Source: Thiobacillus sp.
GTDB taxonomy: Bacteria > Pseudomonadota > Gammaproteobacteria > Burkholderiales > Thiobacillaceae
Length of the DNA: 64,000 nt
NCBI GenBank assembly: GCA_016124745.1
Contig: WGNC01000005.1
Span: 1-64,000, forward strand
Reading direction: 5' to 3'
The position numbers were made by a program, and so were the translations under genes. Under the pieces are notes generated by a model, which searched no databases, was not told where the DNA came from, and worked only from the letters and a program-made list of their open reading frames with translations. This document shows positions 5,213 to 33,420 of the stretch, in pieces (positions within the stretch are counted from its first letter, which is position 1; every line of letters starts with the position of its first letter).

Positions 5213-5356
5213 GTGGGTGGGCTCGGTCCCGGGAGTTGGGTCTCGGCACCGGCTCCGCCGAGGTATGATGAAGATGTCCTTCAATTGTATCCGGGGGCAG
5301 GCCGCATCAGGCATGGGAAGTCTGGGCCACCCTCAGTAAAATCCTGAAAAGAAATC

Positions 5357-5932: not shown

Positions 5933-5990
5933 CTCCGGAATGACGAAACCTCAAACTTCAGTTGGCCGGGCCCATAGGGTTTTCGGCGCG

Positions 5991-7004: not shown

Positions 7005-7005
7005 G

Positions 7006-10842
<3,837 letters not shown>

Positions 10843-15052: not shown

Positions 15053-15096
15053 GCCGGCCTATCCCCCGCCAGGCGAAAGCCCGGCAGGCTCATGCA

Positions 15097-16299: not shown

Positions 16300-16305
16300 G
16301 TTGAT

Positions 16306-17085: not shown

Positions 17086-17546
17086 TGCGCACCCCCATCG
17101 ATCTCGTGCTTGTAGTGCGTGGGCTCAGCGCTCGGCGGATACTTCGCAATCGGGCCTTGCGGCTTGGTGGAATGACAATCAAAACAGTCGATCCTGACCG
17201 CTGCGTAGCTATGACAACTGACGCAGAAGTCCTCCTTGGCGGTTGCAACGCTGCCCGTCTTTTCGCTGGCGTGGCAATTGATGCATTCCTTGAGGCTGTA
17301 TTTCTTGGTACGGATGCCTCGAAGAACCGTCTCATCACGATGATGATCCAGCAGTTTCATATGGTTGCGACGCATATAGGCTTCGTCTTCGACACACCGC
17401 TCGCCCTTGATGGGCTCAGTGATTACGGGCCTGGGCACGCGACCGGACCTGGGCTCGTCGTCGTCCTCCATGCCTGCCCAAGCCACGGCAGCGGTTGTCA
17501 GCACAATCGCGCCCACCATCAGCAGGCGTGTCATCCTCCGCGCCAC
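17082..17546 (-). CDS. dsrJ: DsrJ, periplasmic trihaem cytochrome c
   Basis: A signal peptide (residues 1-24) precedes three CxxCH motifs: CINCH, CVSCH and CFDCH. A conserved cysteine upstream, in GERCVEDE, matches the residue that serves as an unusual His/Cys haem ligand in Allochromatium DsrJ. That ligand is thought to matter for sulfur chemistry rather than simple electron transfer. At 154 residues the length is normal. It sits two bases after dsrL and overlaps dsrO. Confidence 0.93.
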   Translation of the reverse strand: MARRMTRLLMVGAIVLTTAAVAWAGMEDDDEPRSGRVPRPVITEPIKGERCVEDEAYMRRNHMKLLDHHRDETVLRGIRTKKYSLKECINCHASEKTGSVATAKEDFCVSCHSYAAVRIDCFDCHSTKPQGPIAKYPPSAEPTHYKHEIDGGAQ

Positions 17547-17548
17547 GC

Positions 17549-19513: not shown

Positions 19514-19558
19514 GTTGGTTCTCCTAACGCCTACGTAACTAAAGATAGATAATCGCGA

Positions 19559-21100
19559 TCAATCGGCCTGCGGTGGCACGTCCAGCTTGATCGCCTTGCT
19601 GACCAGCTGGTGGACACCGCCCACCATGCTCATGTCGAAGCCGTATTTTGGCAAAACCTTGGTGAACTGCGCCTTGCAGATGGCGCAGATCAGGGCCAGG
19701 AAATTGACCTGGTTTTCCTTGACCACATTGTTCAGCGCGGTCGCGCGCGGCAATGCACCCTTGACCCGGACTTCCATCAAATCATCGGTCAGCACGCCGC
19801 CGCCGCCGCCGCAACAGAACGTGGCTTCGCGGATGGTGTCATCCGCCATGTCGTGGTAATTGTTCACCACCGACTTGATCAGCTCGCGCGGAATGGTGAA
19901 CTGGCCGCCCGGTTCGGTGCCCATGCGCGACGCACGCGCCACGTTGCACGAGTCATGATAGGTCACGACAAGATCGTCATTCAATGACGGATCGACCTTG
20001 ACCTTGCCGGACTTGATCAGATCGTTGGTCAGCTCGCAAATATGCTGCGGCTGCGGATAGGCCGGGTCGAGCTGCTTTTGCAGTTCGATCGAGAATGGAT
20101 CGTTGCCGCCGTAGCCGATCCCGGTCAGCGTGTTCCAAAAGCTGTAGGCAACGCGCCAGGCATGGCCGCATTCACCAACCACAATGCGCTTGACGCCGAG
20201 TTCCAGCGCGGCATCGCGAATGCGCATCGCGACCTTGCGCATGGTTTCGTAGTTGCCGTTGAACAGGCCAAAATTGCCGGCCTCGGCAGCGTGCGTGGAG
20301 AGGGTCCAGCTGATGCCTGCCGCGTGGAACACCTTGGCGTAGCCGATCAGCGATTCCACATGCGGCTCGGAGAAGAAGTCGGCGGACGGCGTGATCAGCA
20401 GCACTTCCGCACCCTTCACGTCGATCGGCATCTTTACCGGCACGCCCGTGTCGGCCTCGATGTCCTCTTCCAGACCTTCCAGGGTATCAAGCAGCGCGGG
20501 GCCGGGCAGACCCAAGTTGTTGCCGATCTTCTGGACCTTGCCCAGAATCTCGTTGGAATATTTCTGACCCATGCCCACATGGTTCAGAATCTCGCGCCCT
20601 GCCATGGTGATTTCGGCAGTGTCGATGCCATATGGACAGAACACCGAACAGCGCCGGCATTCCGAACACTGGTGGTAGTAGCTGTACCAGTCGTCGAGGA
20701 TTTCCTTGGTCAGGTCCTTGGCACCCACCAGTTTGGGGAAAAGCTTGCCCGGAGTGGTGAAATAGCGGCGATAGACCTGGCGCATCAGATCCTGGCGCGC
20801 AACAGGCATGTTCTTCGGATCCGCGGTACCCAGGAAATAGTGGCACTTGTCGGTGCAGGCGCCGCAGTGCACGCAGGCGTCCAGAAAGACTTTCAGCGAG
20901 CGGTATTTGCCCAGCAGGTCGCCCATCTTGTCGATGGCGCGCTCCTTCCAGTCCTCGCCCAGTTCATGCGGATAGCCCATGAAATCCTGAACCGGTTTTG
21001 GCGCAAGAAAGGACTTGACATGCGACATCGTGCCTTCCCGAACCTTGGGAACCTCGATGTCGTCCTTCATTTCCGGAACGTCAAATTCAGCAACAGCCAC
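19559..21100 (-). CDS. dsrK: DsrK, cytoplasmic catalytic subunit of DsrMKJOP (CCG protein)
   Basis: DsrK resembles HdrD-type heterodisulfide reductases. Two ferredoxin clusters are visible (CVHCGACTDKCHY and CSECRRCSVFCPYG), then HDSCNVARAS and ATFCCGGGGG of the CCG domain that holds the special [4Fe-4S] site. It is thought to act on the DsrC trisulfide or disulfide and pass electrons to DsrM. The 513 residues have no membrane segment. The dsrM stop lies about 50 bases upstream. Confidence 0.95.
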   Translation of the reverse strand: MAVAEFDVPEMKDDIEVPKVREGTMSHVKSFLAPKPVQDFMGYPHELGEDWKERAIDKMGDLLGKYRSLKVFLDACVHCGACTDKCHYFLGTADPKNMPVARQDLMRQVYRRYFTTPGKLFPKLVGAKDLTKEILDDWYSYYHQCSECRRCSVFCPYGIDTAEITMAGREILNHVGMGQKYSNEILGKVQKIGNNLGLPGPALLDTLEGLEEDIEADTGVPVKMPIDVKGAEVLLITPSADFFSEPHVESLIGYAKVFHAAGISWTLSTHAAEAGNFGLFNGNYETMRKVAMRIRDAALELGVKRIVVGECGHAWRVAYSFWNTLTGIGYGGNDPFSIELQKQLDPAYPQPQHICELTNDLIKSGKVKVDPSLNDDLVVTYHDSCNVARASRMGTEPGGQFTIPRELIKSVVNNYHDMADDTIREATFCCGGGGGVLTDDLMEVRVKGALPRATALNNVVKENQVNFLALICAICKAQFTKVLPKYGFDMSMVGGVHQLVSKAIKLDVPPQAD

Positions 21101-21148
21101 GTGATTGTCCTTTTCCTGTACTTATTGTTCGCAAATCATGCCAACGAA

Positions 21149-21883
21149 TCAGTTGTTCTGGTCGAGACGGGCAGCCCACGCCGCCACATGGCGATGCTCG
21201 CGCGGATTGTCCGCCTGGTTGCGCGTGGGGCTGAAGAACAGGCCCGGCGCATGCAGCAATTTGCTGATCGGGAAGATCGCCATCAGCAAAGCCACCATGG
21301 CCAGATGCGCCAGGAGTATCGGGTCCTGCGGCACTGGCTGCACATCGAAGTACATCAAGCCCATGATGAATTCCTTGAGCGAGATGATGTCGGTATGCGC
21401 AACGAAGGTCATCAGCATGCCGGACAGACCGATGCCGAGCAGCAACACCAGCATCAGGTAATCAGAGGGGGTGGAAATATAGCGCACGCGGTCGACCACA
21501 AAGCGACGTGCCAGGAGACCGGCCAAACCCAGCACCATCATGATGCTCGCATATTTGCCGAACGGCTGGACGATATCGACCCAGAACCAGACTGGCTGCG
21601 TGAAGTAGCGCAGATGACGGGCAAGCACCAGGAACAGACCGAAATGGAAGAGCCAGCCAAAAGCCCAGATCCACTTGTTCGATTTGAACAGCGACTCGAA
21701 CAGCACCACTTCCTTGGCCATCCGGTACACGACTCCCTTTTGCGTGGTGGGTGCTGGCGTGGTCGGAATCAACAGTGGCGCAGGTGTGCGGCTGTAGTCG
21801 AAAATCTTGTAAACCAGGCCGACCACCAGCAACAAGGTCGCGATGTAAAACATCCCGGCATAAATCATCGTCACAGTAGACAA
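21149..21883 (-). CDS. dsrM: DsrM, membrane dihaem cytochrome b subunit
   Basis: A NarI-like membrane protein with about five or six hydrophobic helices. Histidines in helical stretches (for example LFHFGLFLVLARHLRY and HLAMVALLMAIFPISKLLHAP) are suitable for two b haems. DsrM links DsrK to the quinone pool. I use the TTG at 21883 because AGGAG is placed seven bases upstream. The first ATG (21868) has no such site. The 198-base gap before it contains a strong hairpin (22039-22066). Confidence 0.9.
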   Translation of the reverse strand: MSTVTMIYAGMFYIATLLLVVGLVYKIFDYSRTPAPLLIPTTPAPTTQKGVVYRMAKEVVLFESLFKSNKWIWAFGWLFHFGLFLVLARHLRYFTQPVWFWVDIVQPFGKYASIMMVLGLAGLLARRFVVDRVRYISTPSDYLMLVLLLGIGLSGMLMTFVAHTDIISLKEFIMGLMYFDVQPVPQDPILLAHLAMVALLMAIFPISKLLHAPGLFFSPTRNQADNPREHRHVAAWAARLDQNN

Positions 21884-22038
21884 ACTCGATCTCCTAAAGG
21901 ACTTCGCCCCCCCAGGCGCTGACGCGACTGCGGTACCGTACGCCCTAACAACGTAACTGTTTACGAATCAAACGCTCATGCCCGCGCATGCATGGGCTTC
22001 CATACGCATTTGATTTGGAAACAAGAACCTGAATCAAA

Positions 22039-22066
22039 GTCGCCCCGGAGCAAGCACCGGGGCGAC
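22039..22066 (-). terminator. Hairpin between dsrC and dsrM, partial terminator or processing site
   Basis: A perfect 10-base inverted repeat, GTCGCCCCGG/CCGGGGCGAC, with an 8-base loop lies 16 bases after the dsrC stop and is followed on the transcript by TTTGATT. It can stop part of the transcription, or protect the upstream mRNA, and so give more DsrC than DsrMKJOP. Confidence 0.65.
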
Positions 22067-22082
22067 CCGAAAGCTTTACGAC

Positions 22083-22418
22083 TTAGATACAGCCGGTCGG
22101 CTTGGGCAGGCCGGCAATCTTACAAGCCTGCTTGGCGGGGCCGTAGGGGAACAACTCGTACAGGTACTTGTTGTTGCCTTTTTCAGGGCCGAGCTTCTTG
22201 CCGATAGCCTTGGTCAGCACGCGCACTGCAGGGGCGATCTGATATTCGGCATAGTACTCACGCAGGAAATTGACGACTTCCCAGTGGCTGTCGGTCAGGT
22301 CGACCTTCTCTTCGACAGCCATGTACTTGGCAATGTCTTCGTTCCACTGCGACAAGTCGACCAGATAGCCTTCCTCGTCGACTTCGACTTCCTTACCGGC
22401 GATATTCACCATAGGCAT
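22083..22418 (-). CDS. dsrC: DsrC, sulfur-carrier protein with both redox cysteines
   Basis: DsrC carries sulfur as persulfide or trisulfide between DsrEFH, DsrAB and DsrMKJOP. Both conserved cysteines are present in the flexible C-terminal arm: Cys99 (KQACKIAG) and the penultimate Cys110 (PTGCI). I start at 22418 because AGGAG lies seven bases upstream; this gives MPMVNIAGKEVEV and 111 residues, the usual length. The second ATG at 22412 is too far from the ribosome site. The gene follows dsrH by 23 bases and precedes a hairpin. Confidence 0.97.
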   Translation of the reverse strand: MPMVNIAGKEVEVDEEGYLVDLSQWNEDIAKYMAVEEKVDLTDSHWEVVNFLREYYAEYQIAPAVRVLTKAIGKKLGPEKGNNKYLYELFPYGPAKQACKIAGLPKPTGCI

Positions 22419-22441
22419 AGCAATACTCCTTCTGTTAAAAG

Positions 22442-22741
22442 TTACAGCCAAGACTGACAGCTGTTGTGCTCTGCGACCAGATCCACAAAACCGCCGTAAT
22501 CCACGACATTGACTCCGTCCAGCACGCGCCCGGCCATGCCGCGCGCAGCCAGATCAGGACCGAGTGCGTAAATCTTGAGGTCAGCTGCCGCTGCCTGGAT
22601 TTTCGCTGCCGCCGCGCTGCCATTCGTCACCGCGTAAACCGCGTCTTCGATCAGCAATACAGCAGAACCCTTTGTGGCCATGGCGAGGCAGCTTTCCAGC
22701 GCGCCCCGTTCTGTAGCCGATTTATTCACAATATGCAGCAT
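22442..22741 (-). CDS. dsrH: DsrH, sulfurtransferase subunit (TusB-like)
   Basis: DsrE, DsrF and DsrH form a heterohexamer that passes sulfur to DsrC. This 99-residue protein has the short TusB/DsrH pattern, starting MLHIVNKSATERGALESCLAM with Cys18 at the site of the conserved DsrH cysteine, and ends in CQSWL. It lies ten bases after dsrF. Confidence 0.93.
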   Translation of the reverse strand: MLHIVNKSATERGALESCLAMATKGSAVLLIEDAVYAVTNGSAAAAKIQAAAADLKIYALGPDLAARGMAGRVLDGVNVVDYGGFVDLVAEHNSCQSWL

Positions 22742-22751
22742 ATCCGTCCCC

Positions 22752-23147
22752 TTAGAAGCTGATCACGACGTCTTGCTCGGCCATGAGATTTGCCATCTCA
22801 TCGACGGAGAGCACCGTGACATCCACTATCAGGTCTTCTTCAGTCAGACCACGCGCATCCATCGACTTCTGGTCGACATACAATTTCTCGATGTCGTAAC
22901 CCTCTAGCGCACGATAGGTCTTGGAGAAATCCTTGACCTCGATGCCCTTAGTATCGATACCCTTCAACAGCTGATATACACCATCATCGGTGAAGACCAT
23001 GCTGACGTCCTGATCGAAAGCCGCGGTGATCAGCACCACCTCCAGACCTTCCAGCGCATACACGGTCCCGTGCGGCGCCTTGCGGTTCAGGAACATGAAT
23101 TTCTTGACGATGCCGGAGCCGTCATCCATTTCATCCATATCGCTCAT
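22752..23147 (-). CDS. dsrF: DsrF, sulfurtransferase subunit (TusC-like)
   Basis: DsrF belongs to the DsrE/F fold and is a structural partner in the DsrEFH complex. The sequence has the TusC-like LNRKAPHGTVYALEGLEVVL and VFTDDGVYQLL segments and no cysteine, in line with a non-catalytic subunit. The start at the ATG at 23147 (MSDMDEMDDG) is preferred because a GAGGG ribosome site lies just before it. A TTG upstream would overlap the dsrE stop. The acidic N-terminal dozen residues are a small extension. Confidence 0.92.
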   Translation of the reverse strand: MSDMDEMDDGSGIVKKFMFLNRKAPHGTVYALEGLEVVLITAAFDQDVSMVFTDDGVYQLLKGIDTKGIEVKDFSKTYRALEGYDIEKLYVDQKSMDARGLTEEDLIVDVTVLSVDEMANLMAEQDVVISF

Positions 23148-23158
23148 CTCGTTATCCC

Positions 23159-23518
23159 TCAATCACCGAACGTCACGAGACGATCGTACTGAATACCCAT
23201 TTCGACCAACTGTCCCAGACCGGAAATCCGGAAGCCAGGTGCCAGCACATCATCCGTGATGCCGCGACGTTGAGCTGCCGCCACACACACGACCAGGTCA
23301 ACCCCATGTTCCGCGGCAAGCTTGGACCAGCGAGCGGAGATATTGCGGTCGTCCTGCGGAGGCGTTGCCAGGCGGTTGGAATTGTTCACGCCGTCATGAT
23401 AGAAAAACACGCGTGGGACAGTGTGGCCTTTCTCGATTGCCGTACGGGCAAACAGAAAAGCGGAATCACTGGCCTGATGGGTATAAGGCCCTTCATTAAT
23501 AAGTATGCCGAATTGCAT
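23159..23518 (-). CDS. dsrE: DsrE, catalytic sulfurtransferase subunit (TusD-like)
   Basis: The active cysteine sits at position 78 in VDLVVCVAAAQRRG, which is the same number as in Allochromatium DsrE, where it carries persulfide and donates it to DsrC. Other family marks are MQFGILINEGPYTHQASDSA and FYHDGVN. The gene is the first of dsrEFHC, after an 83-base gap from dsrB that holds a hairpin. Confidence 0.95.
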   Translation of the reverse strand: MQFGILINEGPYTHQASDSAFLFARTAIEKGHTVPRVFFYHDGVNNSNRLATPPQDDRNISARWSKLAAEHGVDLVVCVAAAQRRGITDDVLAPGFRISGLGQLVEMGIQYDRLVTFGD

Positions 23519-23564
23519 GGCTAGTTCAAACTCCGAAAAATCCAGTCATTATCTTCACGCCTGA

Positions 23565-23590
23565 CCTGCCACAGCCGAGGCCGTGGCAGG
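23565..23590 (-). terminator. Intercistronic hairpin between dsrB and dsrE
   Basis: CCTGCCAC/GTGGCAGG with a ten-base loop lies in the gap 23519-23601, close to the dsrB stop. There is no clear T-run, so it is more likely a stabilising 3' structure for dsrAB mRNA than a full terminator. Confidence 0.45.
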
Positions 23591-23601
23591 CACATCCATC
23601 C

Positions 23602-24672
23602 CTAGAAACGGATGTGAGCGGAAGCGTTCAGGTTGGCACGACCACCACGCCAGTTATCGATGTGATACTTGGTGAAGGGCAGACCGGTCTTCTCGAAGAA
23701 TGCGGGCCAGCCAATACGGTCGATCCAGTCGATCATGCGCTCCCAGGGCTTGCCGTCAGCCTTGTAGGTAGCGAGGATCTTCTTGACCACCTCGGCAACT
23801 TCCGGCCAGCGCGGCGCGCTGTTCGGCAGGCCGGAGGCAACCAGCTTGTGGAAAGTCGGCTTGGAGCGCGCGTTCGAGTTCTTGCCGCCCACCCAGATCG
23901 CGATCTTGGAATGCTCGGGATCGTTGATCTGCATCGGGGGACAGGGCGGGAAACAAGCGCCGCAGCAAATGCACTTCTTCTCGTCGACTTCCAGCGAAGG
24001 CTTGCCGTTCACCAGAGCGGGACGAATCGCCGCAACCGGGCAACGTGCCACAACAGAGGGTCGCTCACACACGTTGGCAACCAGATCATGATTGATCTTC
24101 GGCGGCTTGGTGTGCTGCACGATGATGGCGATGTCAGCTTGGCCGCCGCAGTTGATTTCGCAGCAGGAAGTCGACAGCTTGACGCGGTTGGGCATCTCGC
24201 ACTTGACGAAGTCGTCATACAGCTCATCCATCAGCGCCTTGACCACGCCGGAAGCGTCGGTACCGGGGATGTCGCAGTGCAGCCAGCCCTGGGTGTGCGC
24301 AATCATGGACACCGAGTTCGCGGTGCCACCGATGGGGAATCCCTTGTCGTTAAGCGCCTTGATCAGCGGCTCGACCTTGGAACCATCGGCCACCATGTAT
24401 TCGATGTTGGAACGCGCGGTGAAACGCACGAAACCATCGGCATACTGGTCGGCGATGTCAGCCAGCTCACGGATGGTGTAATGGTCCATCTGGCGCTGGG
24501 TACCAGCCTTGACGGTCCAGATTTCGTCGCCGGATTCGGCGCGATGATAAAGGACACCCGGCTTGGGATGGCTGTGGAATGACCACTTGCCATAGTTCTT
24601 CACCATCACGGGGTGCATGTAGGGCATCGGATCCGGTGCGCCGGATTCAATAGGCGGGCGTAAATCAGCCAT
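23602..24672 (-). CDS. dsrB: Reverse dissimilatory sulfite reductase, beta subunit
   Basis: DsrAB in sulfur oxidisers works in reverse and oxidises DsrC-bound sulfur to sulfite. DsrB has the STSCCEINCGGQADIAI sirohaem/[4Fe-4S] region and an inserted ferredoxin domain with KKCICCGACFPPCPP. Length 356 is typical. The gap to dsrA (24673-24736) is 64 bases. Whether it is the oxidative type is inferred from the presence of dsrEFH and dsrL in the same operon. Confidence 0.96.
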   Translation of the reverse strand: MADLRPPIESGAPDPMPYMHPVMVKNYGKWSFHSHPKPGVLYHRAESGDEIWTVKAGTQRQMDHYTIRELADIADQYADGFVRFTARSNIEYMVADGSKVEPLIKALNDKGFPIGGTANSVSMIAHTQGWLHCDIPGTDASGVVKALMDELYDDFVKCEMPNRVKLSTSCCEINCGGQADIAIIVQHTKPPKINHDLVANVCERPSVVARCPVAAIRPALVNGKPSLEVDEKKCICCGACFPPCPPMQINDPEHSKIAIWVGGKNSNARSKPTFHKLVASGLPNSAPRWPEVAEVVKKILATYKADGKPWERMIDWIDRIGWPAFFEKTGLPFTKYHIDNWRGGRANLNASAHIRF

Positions 24673-24736
24673 GTTTATTCTCCAACAGATTAGAACGCGA
24701 GCCCCGACACGTGCCGGGACCCGAGGTTAGCAACTA

Positions 24737-26041
24737 TTAAGCGGCGGACGACTGCTTGTACTCGTTCCACTTCTCGACCTGCTCGTCCCAATCGTCGGAA
24801 CGGAAATAGGGGTTGGAACGCGGTTCCTTGATCATGTTGGGATCAACCGGGATATCCATACCCTCGAGGAAGTTGGTCAGGCCGATACGCTCGATCATCT
24901 CGCCGGTGCGCTCGTGCTCCAGCGCGTTTTCTGCGAAGAAGTCGATGATGTTGCGCGCCAGATCGTTCAGCTTTTCGAAGTCTTCATCAGACTCGAGCTT
25001 CATGAACGGAATCACCACGGTGCCCATTGTGGCGCCGATCTTAAGCACGCCCTTGCCGCCAACCAGAATGGTCACGCCCTTGTCCTTGCCGGGCAGCAGG
25101 CCGCCGGGGATGACGTTCAGGCAGTGCATGCAGCGCACGCAGTTCTTGTTGTCGATGCACAGGGCGTTGCCGTCGCCAAGCTTGGCAACCGACACGGTGT
25201 CGCTGGCCTGGACCTTGTCAGCGGCAACCAGGGTAATCGCTCCGGTCGGACACTTGCTGATCACGTCGTTCACCAGGTCGGACATGCCGTGCGCCTTCAT
25301 GTAGTCCTGAACTTGCGCTTCGTTGACGCGGATGTTGTCGCGCCAGGTGCCGATGGTCGCCATGTCGGAACGCTGGATCGCGTTGACGCAGTCGTTCGGG
25401 CATCCGGAGAACTTGAACTTGAACTTGTACGGCAGGGACGGGCGGTGCATGTCGTCCAGGTTGTTGTTGATGACGGTACGCAGCGCCTTGGCTTCGTCAT
25501 AACAGGACATTTCGCAGCGGGCAGCGCCCACGCAGGACATCGATGTACGCAGTGCGGGACCCGCGCCACCCAGATCGAAGCCCATCTCGTTGAATTCGTC
25601 GAAGGCACGCTGCACATCTGCAGTCTTGATACCCTGGAACATGATGTCGCCGGACTGGCCATGGAAGGCGATCAGGCCCGAACCACCCGTAGCCGACCAA
25701 GTATCGCACATCTTGCGCAGCAGGTCAGATGTATAGTGCATGCCGGCCGGCGGTTGAATGCGCAGGGTGTGGAATTCGGCAGCCTCGGGGAACAGCGGCT
25801 TGTGGTTCTCGTCCTTCAGCTCGGTGAAGCGGGGAATAACGCCACCACCATAACCGAACACGCCAACCGTACCACCCTTCCAGTAGCCAAATTTGGTCCG
25901 GTAGGACGTTTCCAGCTGACCCATCAGGTCAACCATCATGTCGTTATCCTTGGCCAGACGCTTCAGACCGGTCACGAAGCTGGGCCACGGGCCTTTCTCG
26001 AGCTCGTCCAGATTGGGCGTATCAATCATTTGCTTTGCCAT
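24737..26041 (-). CDS. dsrA: Reverse dissimilatory sulfite reductase, alpha subunit
   Basis: The catalytic subunit of rDsr. Sirohaem-cluster ligands are seen in CVGAARCEMSCYDEAKA and KFSGCPNDCVNA, and a ferredoxin insert is seen in CIDNKNCVRCMHCLN. Its 434 residues begin MAKQMIDTPNLDELEKGPWPSF. It is the first gene of the operon; the ATG at 26041 is preceded by AGGAGAG. The promoter region to the right (26042-26421) is shared with a divergent three-gene unit and contains a large inverted repeat. Confidence 0.97.
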   Translation of the reverse strand: MAKQMIDTPNLDELEKGPWPSFVTGLKRLAKDNDMMVDLMGQLETSYRTKFGYWKGGTVGVFGYGGGVIPRFTELKDENHKPLFPEAAEFHTLRIQPPAGMHYTSDLLRKMCDTWSATGGSGLIAFHGQSGDIMFQGIKTADVQRAFDEFNEMGFDLGGAGPALRTSMSCVGAARCEMSCYDEAKALRTVINNNLDDMHRPSLPYKFKFKFSGCPNDCVNAIQRSDMATIGTWRDNIRVNEAQVQDYMKAHGMSDLVNDVISKCPTGAITLVAADKVQASDTVSVAKLGDGNALCIDNKNCVRCMHCLNVIPGGLLPGKDKGVTILVGGKGVLKIGATMGTVVIPFMKLESDEDFEKLNDLARNIIDFFAENALEHERTGEMIERIGLTNFLEGMDIPVDPNMIKEPRSNPYFRSDDWDEQVEKWNEYKQSSAA

Positions 26042-26152
26042 TTTTCTCTCCTAGAAAATTTCGAAATGCCCGTTTAGCTGACAGCCCAACGGTATCCCAA
26101 CATCGTATTGGCTAGACAGTTGCACCACCATCATTCTCATGGGTAAATCGTC

Positions 26153-26192
26153 TACTCCATCCCGGTAGGTCCATACCTACCCATATGGAGTA
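26153..26192. promoter_or_regulatory. 40-base inverted repeat in the dsr divergent promoter region
   Basis: Two 18-base arms (26153-26170 and 26175-26192) match at 15 of 18 positions. They are TACTCCAT and GGTAGGT on the left and the complements on the right, separated by CCAT. It lies 112-151 bases upstream of the dsrA start and 230 bases from the divergent gene. Smaller repeats, CCCTG/CAGGG (26301-26317) and CCCCATAAGGGG, lie further right. The 380-base gap has no other gene. A DNA-binding site for a sulfur-responsive regulator is a reasonable reading. Confidence 0.6.
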
Positions 26193-26421
26193 TGGCGGGT
26201 TCACCCAACGCGGGAATCCTCAATCCAGTCAAAGAATGAGACATTACGCCGCTGCCACAAGAATCCATAAGAGTATTAAAATATTGTTGCAAACGCAAGC
26301 CCCTGGCATCAACAGGGTTGAAGAAATTGCCTGCGTCCCCATAAGGGGTTGATCTCGATGAATTGCGCTGATTTTCATGCCTGATTCGATCGAAAACGTG
26401 AGCATTACGGATTGAGGTTCC

Positions 26422-26643
26422 ATGCCCGAAATTACGCCCCTAGACAGAATGCGGTTGCCGTTCGGCGGCCAGGAAATCGAGTTCCAGCATCTGGAACACG
26501 AATCGGGTGGCGTGCCTTTTCTGCGCATCCGAATCCGTGAGAACAAACGATTTACCATTATTGACGTGGATCCGGTCAGCGCGCAGAAATGGGGCGAACT
26601 GATGCAGGCCTGGGCCAAAGATCACGCCGGCGATGCGCCATGA
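26422..26643 (+). CDS. Small conserved-looking protein, 73 aa, divergent from dsrA
   Basis: The protein is small and soluble. It has an alternating beta pattern (IEFQHLEHESGGVPFLRIRIRE) followed by RFTIIDVDPVSAQKWGELMQAWAKDHA, which looks like a strand and a helix. There is no cysteine or membrane segment. It overlaps the next gene by ATGA (26640-26643), so the two are translationally coupled. I recognise no function. Divergence from dsrA and coupling with a Cas6-like protein and a DsrC paralogue suggest a role linked to sulfur oxidation. Confidence 0.8.
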   Translation: MPEITPLDRMRLPFGGQEIEFQHLEHESGGVPFLRIRIRENKRFTIIDVDPVSAQKWGELMQAWAKDHAGDAP

Positions 26644-27299
26644 ATTGGGCAGGCTGGCCTGAAGACAAGGTCGAGGTGTATACGCCTCACATGATCGACC
26701 TGCAGTTCGATCTGGTCGGCACGACCATTCCAGCTGAGAATGCGCAGATGCTGCAGGATGCGCTGCTACGCCTGCTGCCCTGGCTGAGCGATATCTCCGG
26801 TTGCGGCATCCAGCACCTCAAAGGCGCGGAAACCAACAGCGGCGACGCTACGCTCAACATCAACCGGCGCACCAAGCTGTTTCTGAGGGTGCCGAAGACC
26901 CGCGTGGACGTCATGCAGCAACTGGTCGGCCAGCGCCTCGACCTTGGCGGACACCCCTTGGAGATAGGCAATTTCAAGACCCGGGATTTCAGTCCGTTCG
27001 CCAATATCTACGCCCATTTCGTTGACACAGGCGCCGCCAGTGAAGAACAATTCGTACAGGATGTCATGCGCGAATTGGACGGTCACTTCCAGTTGCGTTG
27101 CGGGTTCATCTGCGGCAAGCCGCAGACCCTGCAAAGCGCATCCGGACCGCTCCATGGCTACAGCCTGATGCTGCACGATGTGCCGCCGCACAAGTCGCTG
27201 CAGTTGCAGGATGAGGGGCTGGGGCGCAACCGTTTGTTAGGCTGCGGGATTTTTATCCCGCATAAATCCATTGCACCGGTCGTTCCGGTGAATCTTTAA
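26640..27299 (+). CDS. Cas6/Cmx6-like protein in a sulfur-oxidation locus
   Basis: I see the pattern of the I-MYXAN-type Cas6 (Cmx6) family: an N-terminal MIDLQFDLVGTTIPAENAQM segment, a ferredoxin-like middle with RLDLGGHPLEIG, and a C-terminal glycine-rich loop EGLGRNRLLGCGIFIP (about residues 192-207). Cas6 proteins are RAMP-fold endoribonucleases that cut CRISPR transcripts. Here no repeat array or other cas gene is visible in 64 kb. The start at 26640 is chosen from the ATGA overlap; it gives 219 residues. A catalytic histidine could be H17 or one of several others, and I cannot tell. The RNA or other ligand is unknown, and the sulfur context is inference from neighbours only. Confidence 0.65.
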   Translation: MNWAGWPEDKVEVYTPHMIDLQFDLVGTTIPAENAQMLQDALLRLLPWLSDISGCGIQHLKGAETNSGDATLNINRRTKLFLRVPKTRVDVMQQLVGQRLDLGGHPLEIGNFKTRDFSPFANIYAHFVDTGAASEEQFVQDVMRELDGHFQLRCGFICGKPQTLQSASGPLHGYSLMLHDVPPHKSLQLQDEGLGRNRLLGCGIFIPHKSIAPVVPVNL

Positions 27300-27324
27300 T
27301 TCCAAACCTGAAAGGAGCAAAACC

Positions 27325-27657
27325 ATGGGATACATGTTGAACGGCGAAGAACTGGAAACCGGCGAAGAGAACTTCCTGCTGGAAGCCAATTTCAGCGACG
27401 AAATCGTTCCCGTCATCGCCGAAGCCGAAGGCATCAAGCTGACCGACGAACACTGGCAAGTCGTCAACTACCTGCGCGAAAAATACAAGGAAGACGGCCA
27501 GACCCCCAACTTCCGCAACATGGTCGCCGAACTGGATGACCTCCACGAAGGCGTGGACTGGAAGAAGAAGCTCTACGAGTTGTTCCCCAACATGCCCGCC
27601 CGCCAGGGCTGCCGCGTCGCCGGCCTGCCCAAGCCTTTCGGCAAGGGCGGCTACTGA
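27325..27657 (+). CDS. DsrC/TusE-family paralogue with a single cysteine
   Basis: A 110-residue member of the DsrC superfamily. EGIKLTDEHWQVVNYLREKY and LYELFPNMPARQGCRVAGLPKP match the fold and the C-terminal arm. Canonical DsrC has two arm cysteines and TusE keeps the penultimate one. This protein keeps only the inner one (Cys96) and ends KGGY, so the terminal sulfur-carrying cysteine is missing. It cannot form the intramolecular disulfide or the trisulfide. AAAGGAGC gives a strong ribosome site. It is the third gene of a unit divergent from dsrA and is followed by a terminator. A regulatory or decoy role is possible. Confidence 0.88.
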   Translation: MGYMLNGEELETGEENFLLEANFSDEIVPVIAEAEGIKLTDEHWQVVNYLREKYKEDGQTPNFRNMVAELDDLHEGVDWKKKLYELFPNMPARQGCRVAGLPKPFGKGGY

Positions 27658-27681
27658 TCCAGGTCGGGAGCATCCGCTGAG

Positions 27682-27711
27682 CGGGCAGCGTGGTGAAGGC
27701 CACGCTGCCCG
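27682..27711 (+). terminator. Rho-independent terminator after the DsrC paralogue
   Basis: A perfect 12-base inverted repeat, CGGGCAGCGTGG/CCACGCTGCCCG, with a six-base loop is followed by TTTCTGACTTT. It closes the 26,422-27,657 unit. Confidence 0.8.
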
Positions 27712-27747
27712 TTTCTGACTTTACGTTCACCTCTCACGGCCCCATCC

Positions 27748-28596
27748 ATGTTTTCCAATACGCTCGTCACCACCGAAGACCTCGCCGCACACCTGGAGGA
27801 CCCGAACTGGATCATCTTGGATTGCCGTTTTACCCTCACCGACCCAGCGGCCGGACGCGAGGCTTATGAAAAAGCGCATATCCCGGGGGCGCGCTACGTT
27901 CATCTCGACGACGACCTCTCCGCACCCGCCACCGATGCGACGGGACGGCACCCGCTGCCCGACCCGCAGGCGCTGACCGAGAAGCTCTGCGCGTGGGGCG
28001 TTGGCGTCAACAAGCAGGTGGTGGTGTACGACGACAGCTATGGCGCCATGGCCGTGCGGCTGTGGTGGATGATGCGCTGGCTCGGCCACCCTGGGGTGGC
28101 GCTGCTGGATGGCGGCTATCCCAAATGGCTGCGCGAAAAGCGCCCGGTCGATGCCGACCGGCCGATACCGCACAAGGCTGCGTGCGCCTGTCTGCCCGAG
28201 CCTACCCAGATCGTGGGCGCGGACGAGGTCATGCACGCTTCCCGGTCGGGCGAACAACTCATCATCGATGCTCGCCCCGACCGACGTTTCTCGGGCGAGT
28301 ACGAGCCGCTCGATCCGGTGGCAGGCCATGTCCCCGGCGCGATCAACTATCCCTTCGATGAGAACCTCGATGTGGACGGCACCTTTCTGCCCCCTGAGGC
28401 ACTGCGCGAAAACTATCAGGCCCTGCTCAAGGGCAAGCCAGCCTGGCAGGTGATTCACATGTGCGGCTCCGGCGTCACCGCCTGCCACAATATCCTGGCA
28501 ATGGAAATTGCCGGGCTCCCCGGGTCACGACTGTACCCCGGTTCGTGGAGCGAATGGATCCGCGACCCCGCACGCCCCGTCGCCACGGGCGAATAG
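27748..28596 (+). CDS. Thiosulfate/3-mercaptopyruvate sulfurtransferase (SseA-like)
   Basis: The protein has two rhodanese domains and 282 residues. The first is the inactive domain (LDCRFTLTDPAAGREAYEKAHIPGARYVHLDDDL). The second carries the catalytic loop in HMCGSGVTACHN, with the CGSGVTA form typical of mercaptopyruvate sulfurtransferase-type enzymes. It transfers a sulfane sulfur to cyanide or thiols; next to dsr it could feed persulfide sulfur to DsrEFH. The leader is short and it is monocistronic or forms a unit with the next genes (33-base gap). Confidence 0.9.
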   Translation: MFSNTLVTTEDLAAHLEDPNWIILDCRFTLTDPAAGREAYEKAHIPGARYVHLDDDLSAPATDATGRHPLPDPQALTEKLCAWGVGVNKQVVVYDDSYGAMAVRLWWMMRWLGHPGVALLDGGYPKWLREKRPVDADRPIPHKAACACLPEPTQIVGADEVMHASRSGEQLIIDARPDRRFSGEYEPLDPVAGHVPGAINYPFDENLDVDGTFLPPEALRENYQALLKGKPAWQVIHMCGSGVTACHNILAMEIAGLPGSRLYPGSWSEWIRDPARPVATGE

Positions 28597-28628
28597 AACG
28601 CAGCCGAGTATTCTAAAGGAGAACATCC

Positions 28629-29249
28629 ATGGTCAAACCCGTCAGAGTCCGTACCGTCTGGTTCAAGAAGGATGGCGAACGAACCGCCGAGGAGATCGCC
28701 AGCGCCGTCGCCACGACCACCTGGCGCGTCGCAGACAAGGCCGTCGACAACCTCGGCCGTGAAAACTACGACATCATCACGCCGGCACGCGGCTTCAAGC
28801 TGATCGCCGAATTCCTCGCCTTCTTGGTGCATTACTGCGACCGCATGGCCTACGCCACGCTCTCGCCGGAGCGCAGGGTCGCGGTGCTGCAAGCCGTATC
28901 CAACCGGCTGGGTGAATTGATGGAAGAGAACATCATCAGCGTTGCCGGTCCCGACGCCAACCGCAATTTCAAGGCCGAATTCATCGACTTCCTGAACCGG
29001 CGTTTTGAGGACTATTCCGAGTTCGAGTTTCCCGACGACGACAAGGCCAGTTTTCCTGCGCTGCGCTTCCTCGGGCTGCAGATCCGCGACGAGATGGGCG
29101 ACAACGACAAGACCTGGATCATGGACCAGATCATGGACATCGAGATGCCCGAGATGATGGGCACGGTGAGGAAGAGCTTCAAGGGCCTTTTGTCCGATGC
29201 GCCGGTCAAGCGCGGTTTCGGTTCTCCCGACATGCTGCCGCCGGAATAA
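28629..29249 (+). CDS. Conserved-looking helical protein of unknown function, 206 aa
   Basis: The protein is almost all helical and acidic at the end. It has no signal peptide, membrane helix or metal motif. AAAGGAGAAC lies seven bases before the ATG, so expression is likely good. Segments such as FKLIAEFLAFLVHYCDRMAYATLSPERR and LQIRDEMGDNDKTWIMDQIMDIEMPEMMGTVRKS suggest a compact helical bundle. I do not recognise a family. It sits between a sulfurtransferase and a TauD-like dioxygenase and may belong to sulfur or cysteine metabolism. Confidence 0.7.
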   Translation: MVKPVRVRTVWFKKDGERTAEEIASAVATTTWRVADKAVDNLGRENYDIITPARGFKLIAEFLAFLVHYCDRMAYATLSPERRVAVLQAVSNRLGELMEENIISVAGPDANRNFKAEFIDFLNRRFEDYSEFEFPDDDKASFPALRFLGLQIRDEMGDNDKTWIMDQIMDIEMPEMMGTVRKSFKGLLSDAPVKRGFGSPDMLPPE

Positions 29250-29264
29250 GGGTTCAGGCACGGC

Positions 29265-30188
29265 ATGCTGAATTCTCCATTCGACCTGGCCAACGAAACG
29301 GGCTACCGCGCCTGGCGCGACGCCAAACTTGCCGCGTATCCGCGCAGCGTCGAAGAACTCATCGTGCCGCTGACCGACCCGCGGCACTTGAGCGCCGATG
29401 AAATGGCGGCACTCGAATCACGATGCGCGCGCGCCAACATGGCGATCTACAGCGCGCCGCACCTGCCCGCCGCCGACAAGTCGTTGCCGCACCAGCTTGC
29501 ACGCCAGTTGGGGCTTACCCGCCTCGAGGGCAACTACCTCGCCGACGAGGACGGTCTGTCCAGCATCACGCCCGCCGGCGACGAAGGCAGCGTACGCGGG
29601 GAGTTCATTCCCTACACCCACAAGCCGATCAACTGGCATACCGATGGCTATTACAACGCGCTCGACCGCCGCATCCTCGGCATGACGCTGCACTGCGCGC
29701 AGGATGCCGAAACGGGCGGCGAGAACGCCCTGCTCGACCACGAGATTGCCTACATCGAGCTGCGCGATGCGAGCCCTGATTATGTCGCCGCGCTGATGCA
29801 GCCCGATGCGATGACCATTCCCGCACGCATGGACGAAGACAACATCGCACGCCCCGAGCAGAGCGGCCCGGTGTTTGCGGTCGATGCAGAACAGGGATTT
29901 CTCCACATGCGCTATACCGCGCGCACCCGCTCGATCGTTTGGAGGAACGATGCCGTCACTAAGGCTGCAGTCAAGACGCTGGCCGGCATCCTCGCAGGCT
30001 CCGAATACATCCTGAACGCCCGCCTGCAGCCGGGCATGGGCCTCATCTGCAACAACGTCCTGCACACCCGCAGCGCATTTGCCGACTCGGCAGAACACCG
30101 CCGGCTGCTCTATCGCGGCCGCTATTACGACCGCCTGCGCTTTGACTTGCGCCCGGCATCCGCTCACGCCACCGGGCGAAGCAGGTAA
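29265..30188 (+). CDS. TauD/TfdA-family iron/2-oxoglutarate-dependent dioxygenase
   Basis: The metal-binding triad is visible as NWHTDG (His and Asp) and a distal LHTRSAF (His), and the arginine for 2-oxoglutarate follows in the EHRRLLYRGRYYDRLR stretch. The double-stranded beta-helix family includes taurine, sulfonate and gamma-butyrobetaine hydroxylases, and the substrate is not readable here. Its 307 residues begin at ATG 29265, 15 bases after the previous gene. Proximity to sulfur genes makes a sulfonate possible. Confidence 0.8.
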   Translation: MLNSPFDLANETGYRAWRDAKLAAYPRSVEELIVPLTDPRHLSADEMAALESRCARANMAIYSAPHLPAADKSLPHQLARQLGLTRLEGNYLADEDGLSSITPAGDEGSVRGEFIPYTHKPINWHTDGYYNALDRRILGMTLHCAQDAETGGENALLDHEIAYIELRDASPDYVAALMQPDAMTIPARMDEDNIARPEQSGPVFAVDAEQGFLHMRYTARTRSIVWRNDAVTKAAVKTLAGILAGSEYILNARLQPGMGLICNNVLHTRSAFADSAEHRRLLYRGRYYDRLRFDLRPASAHATGRSR

Positions 30189-30223
30189 AATAGCGGCTTT
30201 TCTGATCTCGGCCATTTGCCGTC

Positions 30224-31474
30224 ATGCAGCTTCTCACCCTGGGGGTCAATCACCACACCGCGCCGCTCGCGATCCGCGAGCAGGTTGCGTTCGGCCCCGA
30301 GAAACTCGAACACGCGCTGCATGACCTGACCCAAAGCCAGCACGCCTCCGAAGTCGCCATCCTGTCGACCTGCAACCGCACCGAACTCTATTGCAACACG
30401 CCCGCTCCCGATGCCGTCACCCAATGGCTGGCGGATTTCCATCGCGTCGAGCGCCGTGAGCTGGCGCCCTATCTGTACGCCCTGCCACGCGAAAAGGCCG
30501 CTCAGCATGCGTTTCGCGTCGCCGCCGGTCTCGATTCGATGGTGCTGGGTGAAACACAGATACTCGGACAGATGAAGCAGGCGGTGCAGACCGCCGAGAA
30601 GGCCGGCACGCTCGGCCTGCTGCTACACAAGCTGTTCCAGCGCACCTTTTCGGTGGCCAAGGAGGTGCGCACCAGTACCGAAATTGGCTCCAACTCTGTC
30701 TCTATGGCCGCCGCCGCAGTCCGCCTCGCCGAGCGGATTTTCCCCGGCATCAAGGAACAGGCCTGCCTGTTCATCGGCGCCGGCGAGATGATCGAGCTGT
30801 GCATGACCCACTTTGCGGCGCAACACCCGCGCCGCATGACCGTGGCCAACCGCACGGCCGAACGGGCCCGTCCGCTGGCCGATCGCTTCGGCGCCGGAGT
30901 GATCCCGCTAACCGCGCTGTCCGACGAGTTGCCGGCCTTCGACATCATCATTACGTCCACGGCAAGTCCCCTGCCGATCCTTGGCAAGGGCCTGCTCGAG
31001 CGTGCCATCAAGCAGCGTCGCCACCGCCCTATTTTCATCGTCGATCTCGCCGTACCGCGCGACGTCGAAGCCGAAGTCGCCGACATGGACGACGTCTTCC
31101 TCTACAGCGTGGACGATCTCGGCCAGGTGGTGCGCGAGGGCATGGACAACCGTGTGGCACAGGTGGTGCAGGCCGAAGCCATCATCGAAACCAGTGTCGA
31201 AAGTTTCGTACATTGGATGGAAGGCCGCGAACTGGTGCCGGTGATCCGTTCGCTGCGCGACAGCGCCGAGCGGCATCGCCGCCACGAAATCGAAAAGGCC
31301 CAGAAAGCGCTGGCGCGCGGAGAAGATCCGCAGGCAGTGCTCGAGGCGATGAGCCACGCACTGTCCAACAAGTTCCTGCACGCGCCCACCCACGCACTCA
31401 ACCATGCCGGCAGCGCCGAACGTGAAGAATGCGTTCGCATCATCAGCCAGTTGTACGGCCTGCACCACGAATGA
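30224..31474 (+). CDS. hemA: Glutamyl-tRNA reductase
   Basis: HemA reduces glutamyl-tRNA to glutamate-1-semialdehyde, the first step of tetrapyrrole synthesis in bacteria. The catalytic Cys50 lies in [37 protein letters not shown] and LFIGAGEM (the NADPH loop) are seen. At 416 residues the length is standard. It overlaps prfA by four bases (ATGA), the usual hemA-prfA-prmC order. Confidence 0.97.
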
Positions 31475-32553
31475 AGGCTTCTTTGACCGACAAGCTCGCT
31501 CGCGCCGACGAGCGGCTCGAGGAACTCGACGCCCTGTTGTCGCAGCCGGAAATCGCGGGCGACATGGAAAGCTATCGCAGGCTCACCCGCGAACACGCCG
31601 ACCTCACCCCGGTGGTGGCCTTGTATCGCCAGTACCGGCAGGTCGAGGCCGACCAGAAGACCGCCAGCGAAATGCTCGCCGACCCCGACATGCGCGAACT
31701 GGCCGAAGCCGAGGTCGCTGACGGCGACGCGAAAATTGCGAGGCTGGAGGCCGAACTGCAGACCGCGCTACTGCCGAAGGATCCGAACGACGGGCGCAAC
31801 ATCTTCCTCGAAATCCGTGCCGGCACCGGCGGCGACGAATCTGCGCTCTTCGCCGGCAATCTGCTGCGCATGTATACACGCTACGCCGAGCGCCAGGGCT
31901 GGAAGGTCGACGTGGTATCGGAAAACCCGGGCGAAGTCGGCGGTTATAAGGAAGTGATCGTGCGCGTCATCGGCCACGGCGCCTATTCTCGACTGAAATT
32001 CGAGTCGGGCGGCCACCGCGTGCAGCGCGTACCGGAAACCGAATCGCAGGGGCGCATCCACACCTCGGCCTGCACCGTGGCCGTGATGCCGGAGGCTGAC
32101 GAAGTCGGCGAAGTCGACATCAATCCGGCCGATTTGCGCATCGACACCTTTCGCGCCTCCGGTGCAGGCGGACAGCACATCAACAAGACCGATTCCGCAG
32201 TGCGCATCACTCACCTGCCGACGGGCCTCGTGGTCGAATGCCAGGACGACCGTTCGCAGCACCGCAATCGCGCGCAGGCCATGAGCGTCTTGGCGGCGCG
32301 GCTCAAGGACCGAGAAATCCAGGCGCAGCAGGCAACCGAGGCAAGCACGCGCAAGAGCCTGATCGGCAGCGGCGACCGCTCCGACCGCATCCGCACCTAC
32401 AACTTCCCGCAGGGCCGCATCACCGACCATCGCATCAATCTCACGCTGTACAAGATCGATGCCATGATGGACGGCGATCTGACCGAACTGCTCGATGCGC
32501 TGGCTGCCGAGCATCAGGCCGAACTGCTGGCGACGCTGTCGGGCGAAATCTGA
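31471..32553 (+). CDS. prfA: Peptide chain release factor 1
   Basis: RF1 reads UAA and UAG. The stop-codon-reading PxT motif appears as PET in [13 protein letters not shown], and the GGQ loop as [15 protein letters not shown]. The start is taken at 31471 ([16 protein letters not shown]) from the overlap with hemA. This gives 360 residues. It is followed directly by prmC, which methylates the GGQ glutamine. Confidence 0.97.
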
Positions 32554-33420
32554 GTGGACGTCATTCGTCTGCTCGACCAAGCAAGCCTGCAGATCGGTGC
32601 TGCACTCGGGTTGGACAAACGCGAAGCCCGTATCGAAGCGCGCGCGCTGGGCGTGCATGCCTGGAAAGTCGATGCGGCATGGCTGATCTCGCACGATACC
32701 GACCCGCTTACCGGTGAAATGCTCACGACATATGACACGCTTTTGTCACGTCGCCTAGAAGGGTTTCCCATCGCCTATCTGGTGGGAAGCCGCGAATTTT
32801 ATGGCCGCCCGTTCAAAGTCACATCCGATGTGCTGATCCCGCGCCCGGATACAGAATTGCTGGTCGAACTCGCGCTGGAACGCATCCCCCTCCACCGTTC
32901 CGTGGATGTTCTCGATCTCGGTACCGGCAGCGGCTGCATCGCCATCACCTTGGCGCTGGAACGCCCACTCGCCGGCGTCACGGCAGTGGACCGCTCTGCA
33001 GTTGCGCTTGAGGTCGCTCAGCTAAATGCCAAAACTCTCAACGCACCTGTCGATTTCCTGACCAGCGACTGGTTCGCCGCGCTTGCCGACCGACAATTCG
33101 ACCTCGTCGTCAGCAATCCGCCCTACATCCCTGCGGCCGATCCACACCTGACCCGCGGCGACGTGCGCTTCGAACCCGTGGCAGCCCTGGCCGCCGGCGT
33201 CGACGGTCTCGACGACCTGCGCCGACTGATCCACGATTCCCGTTCCCACCTCAAGCGCGGCGGCACGCTGCTGTTGGAGCATGGCTACGACCAGGCCGAT
33301 GCTGTCCTCGAACTGCTGTGCCAACATGGATTCGAGCAGAATCTTACGTGGCGCGATCTCGCGGGCCTGAACCGGGTCAGCGGCGGGTGCAGGCCGGGCG
33401 CGGTAGCCCCTTCCGGCTGA
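32554..33420 (+). CDS. prmC: Release-factor glutamine methyltransferase
   Basis: PrmC methylates the GGQ glutamine of RF1 and RF2. The SAM loop is VLDLGTGSGCIAI, the catalytic motif is SNPPYIP, and IAYLVGSREFYGRPF is the family marker. GTG at 32554 is the start because it directly follows the prfA stop. Length 288 is normal. Confidence 0.95.
   Translation: MDVIRLLDQASLQIGAALGLDKREARIEARALGVHAWKVDAAWLISHDTDPLTGEMLTTYDTLLSRRLEGFPIAYLVGSREFYGRPFKVTSDVLIPRPDTELLVELALERIPLHRSVDVLDLGTGSGCIAITLALERPLAGVTAVDRSAVALEVAQLNAKTLNAPVDFLTSDWFAALADRQFDLVVSNPPYIPAADPHLTRGDVRFEPVAALAAGVDGLDDLRRLIHDSRSHLKRGGTLLLEHGYDQADAVLELLCQHGFEQNLTWRDLAGLNRVSGGCRPGAVAPSG

Follow-up and report, generated by a model that had tools for sequence, protein, structure and literature searches.

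A Cas6 Gene Divergent from dsrA

A 64,000-nucleotide stretch of a Thiobacillus sp. genome (GenBank assembly GCA_016124745.1, contig WGNC01000005.1, positions 1 to 64,000; hereafter the window) carries the reverse dissimilatory sulfite reductase (rDsr) operon and, facing away from it, a gene for a Cas6 protein that we call Cas6L. The gene dsrA, which encodes the rDsr alpha subunit, occupies 24737–26041 on the minus strand (TIGR02064, 497.6 bits over 24758–26011). A 380 bp divergent intergenic region (26042–26421), characterized by sequence and folding, separates it from three plus-strand genes that point away from dsrA. These encode a 73-residue protein (26422–26643), Cas6L (219 residues, 26640–27299), and a DsrC paralogue, DsrC2 (110 residues, 27325–27657). 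An ATGA overlap at 26640–26643 joins the first two genes, and AAAGGAG precedes the third. The first-pass annotation, made from the sequence letters, had described this divergent trio with its overlap and strong ribosome site, and all of these elements are present. The small protein that it left without a family belongs to DUF6967 (PF22295, E 2.6e-30). DsrC2 falls in the DsrC/TusE/DsvC superfamily (PF04358, E 9.5e-31; TIGR03342, 85.6 bits, cut-off 53.5).

The same annotation closed the unit with a terminator after the third gene. A strong, GC-rich hairpin does fold at about 27680–27715 on the plus strand, 3′ of the DsrC2 gene; it is terminator-like in shape, lacks a T-run, and was not among the terminators listed by a terminator scan. 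Nor does the gene series stop at 27657. It continues on the same strand with a two-domain rhodanese/sulfurtransferase (27748–28596; PF00581, E 3.1e-30), a conserved all-helical protein of 206 residues (28629–29249), and a TauD/TfdA-type Fe(II)/2-oxoglutarate (2OG) dioxygenase-like protein (29265–30188; PF02668, E 3.2e-18), and these genes recur with the first three in other genomes.

Cas6L matched PF09559 (Cas6) and TIGR02807 (cas6_cmx6) over its full length, with 197.4 bits (E 2.9e-58, cut-off 26.7) and 218.5 bits (E 8e-65, cut-off 98.85), respectively. Three PADLOC Cas6 models also matched at E 7e-65 or better. These scores lie far above the cut-offs and bear out the Cas6/Cmx6 features first noticed by eye. 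PF19308, the first family tried as Cas6, matched nothing anywhere, and the Cas6 controls were likewise unmatched. An AlphaFold2 (AF2) model built from 50 sequences (pLDDT 89.7, pTM 0.84) predicts the double ferredoxin-like RAMP fold of Cas6 type. In a Foldseek comparison of this model with the PDB, the top 40 matches were all entries from clustered regularly interspaced short palindromic repeat (CRISPR) systems, namely Cas6, Cse3/Cas6e, RAMP, and Cascade chains. The best match, 8fcj_B (E 5.9e-16, TM 0.79), was also the sole solved structure matched by sequence at the limits used (3.5e-29 with a profile).

Known relatives of Cas6L include the type I-MYXAN Cas6/Cmx6 proteins (TIGR02807) and the PF09559 Cas6 proteins of cyanobacterial plasmids, which share its profile family and are of near-equal length. 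The cyanobacterial proteins also have Arg83 and a G-rich loop in common with Cas6L, and His34 in common with many dsr-linked copies. However, six of the seven CRISPR-linked PF09559 proteins found adjoin cas3, whereas the dsr-linked ones have no detected cas neighbours. A tree separated the CRISPR-linked (7) from the dsr-linked (52) proteins by a branch with support of 100/99, and the dsr-linked clade differs further in its lost positive charge, its shared Glu135, Gly159, and Lys209, and its partial loss of His34. The seventh CRISPR-linked protein sits among type IV-like genes on a Gloeobacter plasmid. On that plasmid (Gloeobacter morelensis pGMOR1, 4233–9240 of the fetched locus), the locus also holds matches to Csf2/Cas7, Csf3/Cas5, Cas11, and Csf1/Cas8, a PAPS-reductase family gene, and a cupin gene, and no cas3 is annotated beside its PF09559-type Cas6.

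The Cassette Recurs beside dsrA in Gammaproteobacteria

Co-occurrence was surveyed in Gammaproteobacteria in the GTDB sense, which includes the betaproteobacterial order of the window; the dsrA counts pool oxidative and reductive types. In a sample of 150 genomes from the order, PF09559 was found in 25 of 29 dsrA-bearing genomes and in none of the 121 others. All 25 positive genomes thus bear dsrA, one as a split gene, and four further dsrA genomes have no PF09559 match. A sample of 369 genomes from the class held dsrA over the cut-off in 112, and one genome with a partial dsrA (G559) was added to give 113. PF09559 was present in 107 of these 113 (78/79 and 29/34 in its two parts) and in 2 of 80 dsrA-poor genomes tested among the remainder. 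Six genomes with partial dsrA (G603, G705, G726, G737, G755, and G780) were placed in neither group. Both dsrA-poor positives hold TauD, Cas6, and a DsrC paralogue in the same arrangement. Fisher tests gave p = 1.2e-24 and 5.6e-44 for the order and class samples, respectively, values that ignore relatedness.

Each positive genome carries a single Cas6L copy. In the 80 cases where it lies on the same contig as dsrA and within 6 kb, the two genes are divergent in 80/80, with a median gap of 1730 nt. Of the remaining places, 25 are on other contigs than dsrA and 2 are farther off. Five genomes of only 1.0–1.1 Mb (G565, G663, G771, G801, and G863) have retained the gene.

Gene neighbourhoods were compared in a set of 105 loci, comprising 80 kept from 195 loci of a genome collection and 25 from the order sample. 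Here dsrA is divergent from Cas6L in 100 loci, and in the other five the sequence upstream of Cas6L runs out at a contig end before 700 nt. DsrC2 shares the strand of Cas6L and lies no more than 900 nt away in 105/105 loci, as does DUF6967 in 98/105; a rhodanese was nearby in 94/105 and the helical protein in 102/105. In members of the order, the genes run DUF6967, Cas6, DsrC2, (rhodanese), helical protein, TauD. The common order in other Gammaproteobacteria is TauD, a small protein of 60–70 residues (c11), Cas6, DsrC2, and a protein of 67 residues (c20). The link to rDsr is very strong. The survey confirmed that the association is real and larger than first noted.

Cas6L Stands apart from CRISPR Genes

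The first-pass annotation reported no CRISPR array and no other cas gene, and this reading held for what was searched. An array scan of the window found none, the window being the part of this genome that was scanned. The genome (97.8% complete) has neither Cas1 nor DevR-type Cas7, the two families searched. When the window and 232 fetched loci were scanned together, array signals appeared in four loci only. Two were cyanobacterial plasmid CRISPR loci, where arrays are expected. A third, at one edge of L195, proved on reading to be a plain tandem repeat. The fourth lay in the dsrA–dsrB gap of L217, which holds direct repeats and belongs to a Cas6-negative genome. No array was seen close to Cas6L in the dsr stretches scanned, many with a length of just 3 kb.

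These data bear on the simplest alternative, in which Cas6L is an ordinary Cas6 that matures CRISPR RNAs (crRNAs) from arrays elsewhere in the genome and lies near dsr by chance. Its sequence exceeds a CRISPR equivalog cut-off, and Cas1 was present in 15 of 29 Cas6L-bearing genomes tested, some matches being weak. However, none of the 15 has Cas1 close to Cas6L, the distance exceeding 500 kb where the two share a contig, and the other 14 genomes, the window genome included, have no Cas1 and no DevR/Cas7. The fixed divergent place at dsrA, the near absence of the gene from genomes without dsrA, the lack of nearby arrays in the stretches noted above, and the loss of the probable catalytic histidine in most Thiobacillus-type loci also speak against a standard role in crRNA maturation, which we consider extremely improbable.

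The Probable Catalytic Residue Is Replaced in Most Thiobacillus-Type Loci

Residue 34 of Cas6L directly precedes a helix (35–45) in the AF2 model, at the site of the catalytic histidine in known Cas6 proteins. From this position, His34 is the probable catalytic histidine of the family. Residues were counted in 27 representatives from the order and 25 from other Gammaproteobacteria; L114–L116, which stand in both the beta and the gamma sequence groups, count once. His34 is present in 7/7 CRISPR-linked relatives and in 25/25 representatives from other Gammaproteobacteria. In the order, 19 representatives have His at residue 34, 6 have Tyr, and 2 have Asn. Over 109 dsr-linked loci the counts are His 52, Asn 42, Ser 8, Tyr 6, and a gap in 1; in L001–L048, which are mostly Thiobacillus, they are Asn 38, Ser 8, His 1, and a gap in 1.

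The window copy has Asn34. Because asparagine replaces the probable catalytic histidine, RNA cutting by this protein, as first proposed, is unlikely. The best structural match, 8fcj_B, is the Cas6 of a type I-B CRISPR-associated transposon and likewise has Asn at this position. It operates within Cascade together with a guide RNA, whereas the window genome has no DevR/Cas7, the sole Cascade family searched. Pairwise dN/dS (nonsynonymous to synonymous substitution ratio) was 0.07–0.15 in six Asn34–Asn34 pairs and 0.13–0.22 in three pairs with Ser34 or His34. By these ratios, Asn34-type genes are under continued purifying selection.

Other positions are more constant. The G-rich loop, GLGRNRLLGCG at residues 193–203 of the window protein, is kept as GhG.....G[C/F]G in 52/52 distinct dsr-linked representatives, with Phe in 4. 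Glu135 occurs in 52/52, and Gly159 and Lys209 each in 51/52; all three are absent from the seven CRISPR-linked proteins. Arg77 occurs in 51/52 dsr-linked proteins and also in one of the seven.

DsrC2 Has Lost the Penultimate Cysteine

Cas6L is constantly accompanied by a DsrC-like protein whose penultimate redox cysteine is gone; most copies have lost the other one as well. The window DsrC2 ends in GKGGY in place of TGCI. Its tail, GCRVAGLPKPFGKGGY, keeps one Cys in the C-terminal arm, the upstream one of the two that characterize sulfur-trafficking DsrC. The product of the operon's own dsrC ends in ACKIAGLPKPTGCI, and operon DsrC proteins retain both cysteines where shown. GKGGY closes DsrC2 in 104/105 loci, L036 reading otherwise. 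The last 30 residues hold no Cys in 75 of these loci and one Cys in 30, the window among the latter; a count over a wider set gave 71 tails without Cys and 33 with one. In L191–L212, 22 loci from other Gammaproteobacteria, every DsrC2 ends in RKGGY, and that of L206 has a Cys a few residues earlier.

DsrC paralogues without the two redox cysteines form a class of regulators named RspA, for regulatory sulfur-related protein. DsrC2 resembles RspA-type paralogues in being a DsrC family member without the penultimate Cys. It differs as a subgroup that ends in GKGGY or RKGGY and adjoins Cas6L, and its window copy retains one Cys. In a paper on the Solemya velum symbiont, such DsrC homologues are noted outside the operon in the passages concerned (PMC4287430). 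The Allochromatium vinosum cluster dsrABEFHCMKLJOPNRS is the same rDsr operon as that of the window; it is described from dsrA (Alvin_1251) on, with no divergent cassette in the sections describing it (PMC3368242). By their locus tags, the A. vinosum DsrC paralogues Alvin_0028, 0345, 0732, and 1508 do not lie beside dsrA. In the excerpted results of a study of growth on pyrite, Alvin_1508 drops about 7-fold together with dsrAB (PMC11267869).

A paralogue of this kind could also belong to an RNA- or tRNA-modifying system, in which Cas6L would present the RNA, the DsrC/TusE-like protein and the rhodanese would handle sulfur, and the TauD-like dioxygenase would hydroxylate. DsrC is a relative of the TusE that acts in tRNA 2-thiouridine synthesis, and the cassette repeatedly includes genes for a rhodanese and an Fe(II)/2OG dioxygenase. 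However, TusE uses its penultimate Cys for transfer, the very residue that DsrC2 has lost, and just 2 of the 22 loci L191–L212 have the rhodanese. A modification system also gives no reason for tracking dsrA, and we regard it as improbable.

A Proposed Role in Sulfur Oxidation

We propose that Cas6L is an exapted Cas6, an RNA-binding and in many lineages RNA-cutting partner of a DsrC paralogue in sulfur oxidation. We give this reading about an even chance of being right, its RNA target and activity being deduced. A Cas6 protein that processed crRNA would have left its CRISPR system, become fixed beside the rDsr genes in Gammaproteobacteria, and turned into a dedicated component of sulfur oxidation. 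It would bind a specific RNA, most likely a sulfur-oxidation transcript or a small RNA, which lineages with His34 would also cut. Together with the small partner protein, the Cys-poor DsrC2 might link this action to the sulfur state of the cell, so that the module would tune rDsr output post-transcriptionally. In most Thiobacillus-type loci, including the window, cutting has probably been lost with Asn34 or Ser34, and binding may have been kept. The recruitment of a Cas6-derived protein for sulfur oxidation, as first read from the window, is partly supported.

More speculatively, Cas6L could work in one complex with the Cys-poor DsrC2 and a small partner (DUF6967 or c11), as a CRISPR-free ribonucleoprotein regulator that senses the flux of sulfur in the cytoplasm and sets rDsr output by binding or cutting a particular RNA. 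We hold this stronger version to be possible and rather doubtful. If true, a core CRISPR enzyme would now be controlling an energy pathway.

Several observations weigh against an RNA-directed role in sulfur oxidation, beginning with the charge of the protein. The median net charge of the core is 0 and −1 in dsr-linked representatives of the order and of other Gammaproteobacteria (n = 27 and 25, respectively), compared to +6 in the CRISPR-linked proteins (n = 7). Since the dsr-linked core is less basic than that of CRISPR-linked Cas6, this comparison of sequences speaks for altered or lost RNA binding, although all seven controls are cyanobacterial. The main rival explanation builds on this difference. 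The Cas6 fold would serve as an RNA-free, protein-binding module that assembles, stores, or protects DsrAB/DsrC, with the Cys-poor paralogue as a non-reactive DsrC stand-in. The fall in core charge from about +6 to about 0, the Asn, Ser, or Tyr at residue 34 in 56 of 109 dsr-linked loci, the invariant or nearly invariant group residues (Glu135, Gly159, Lys209, and Arg77), and the negative outcome of the RNA target search described below all favour it. However, a pure scaffold would need neither His34 nor the G-rich loop, and their retention (His34 in 25/25 gammaproteobacterial and 19/27 order representatives, the loop in 52/52) counts against such a module. We judge it unlikely, and the strongest competitor to the RNA reading.

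The search for an RNA target adds to the case against our proposal. Nine dsr junctions were folded in the fetched loci, and the best stem-loops of three junctions were listed for 49 chosen loci. The window has GC-rich hairpins at 21884–22082 (dsrC–dsrM), 23519–23601 (dsrB–dsrE), and 24673–24736 (dsrA–dsrB). Stable hairpins occur at these three junctions in many genomes, with group median z values down to −3.9. By eye, with no formal motif test, they share no stem or loop motif within or between genomes, and their sequences look unrelated from junction to junction and from genus to genus. Moreover, L123, L125, L126, L199, and L200 keep the cassette and have no strong hairpin at any of the three junctions. 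Among the gammaproteobacterial loci listed, no structure was common to the gaps between the Cas6L and DsrC2 genes. A scan of 14000–33000 against Rfam returned two matches, both under the gathering scores.

These folds bear directly on the mechanism put forward in the first-pass annotation, the processing of polycistronic dsr mRNA by Cas6L at its intercistronic hairpins. The recurrence of stable hairpins fits this idea. However, they lack a shared sequence, they are missing from the five cassette-bearing loci just named, the Cas6L-negative L217 still has a strong dsrC–dsrM hairpin, and the window protein has no probable catalytic histidine. The mechanism is therefore unsupported and very unlikely. 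The recurrent hairpins may act in mRNA stability or attenuation.

Genomes lacking the gene also count against our proposal of a dedicated Cas6L in sulfur oxidation. Ten dsrA-bearing genomes of the order and class samples have no PF09559 match. Seven of them (G145, G122, G645, G867, G725, G632, and G595) have a dsrA copy with no more than 2 kb of contig on the cassette side; the stub in G645 shows c11 and TauD, and a second dsrA in G145 has about 5 kb free and no cassette. Contig edges do not account for the other three. G083 (L213) and G132 (L217) show no PF09559 match but retain dsr, DUF6967, and the helical protein, and in G729, whose genome is 86% complete, over 14 kb of sequence on that side of dsrA holds no cassette. 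Because these three genomes do without it, Cas6L is not strictly required. Outside the class, PF09559 was found in 0 of 48 dsrA-bearing genomes (one with dsrA below the cut-off), which came from a phylum sample and were among 398 genomes searched. The association may largely reflect shared descent. Finally, we infer the role of the DsrC paralogue solely from its neighbourhood.

Significance and Published Sightings

The near-constant place of Cas6L by dsrA in Gammaproteobacteria, even in genomes of about 1 Mb, suggests a missed part of the well-studied sulfur-oxidation pathway. Automatic annotation labels the gene a CRISPR protein, and it is therefore easily overlooked or tallied as a defence system in sulfur oxidizers. 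Cas6L is a clear candidate for a Cas protein that has shifted from immunity to metabolism. Natural lineages with and without the probable catalytic residue make the question of binding versus cutting directly testable.

Cas6 is a known family, and what appears to be undescribed so far is the fixed place of this member by dsrA, together with its partners. Among open-licence papers, a literature search that paired Cas6/Cmx6 with dsr genes, or looked for DUF6967, turned up no text that discusses such a gene; subscription papers could be missed by it. In a study of mangrove proteobacterial metagenome-assembled genomes, the legend of Figure 3 lists cas6 among the coloured genes of dissimilatory sulfur maps (PMC10989796). 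This legend is an independent sighting of cas6 in dsr maps. It is the one mention of cas6 in the main text of that paper and carries no comment, and CRISPR is named nowhere in that text. In other open-licence papers holding both Cas6 and DsrC, the Cas6 passages concern CRISPR loci or a CRISPR gene list, as far as the matching passages go. CRISPR is absent from the main texts of PMC10504309 and PMC11406059.

Other Features of the Cassette

The dsrA–DUF6967 intergenic region of the window contains an inverted repeat at about 26153–26193, with GGTAGG..CCTACC inside ACTCCAT..ATGGAGT, a candidate operator. In Thiobacillus-type loci, the 160 nt ahead of dsrA fold more stably than shuffled sequences (median z −3.06, n = 44); two other locus groups had no excess stability there, with medians of −0.76 and −0.27.

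The helical protein (28629–29249) had no Pfam or NCBIfam match over the cut-off. For its AF2 model (pLDDT 81.7), the PDB held no similar fold at E ≤ 0.001. Those c11 and c20 proteins that were scanned had no Pfam match. A merger of c11 and DUF6967 into one family was considered and is not claimed, because hhalign gave a probability of 34% and L115 holds both. DUF6967 homologues were also seen in three stretches of about 20 kb (L117, L118, and L119) in which dsrA, DsrC, and Cas6 were undetected. In 15 of the 22 loci L191–L212, the TauD gene separates dsrA from Cas6L. Near the cassette in L191–L206, three further genes recur: a PKHD-type Fe(II)/2OG hydroxylase (c15), a protein of 64–82 residues that by eye is like ribosome modulation factor (c29), and a protein that by eye is TrpD-like (c31).

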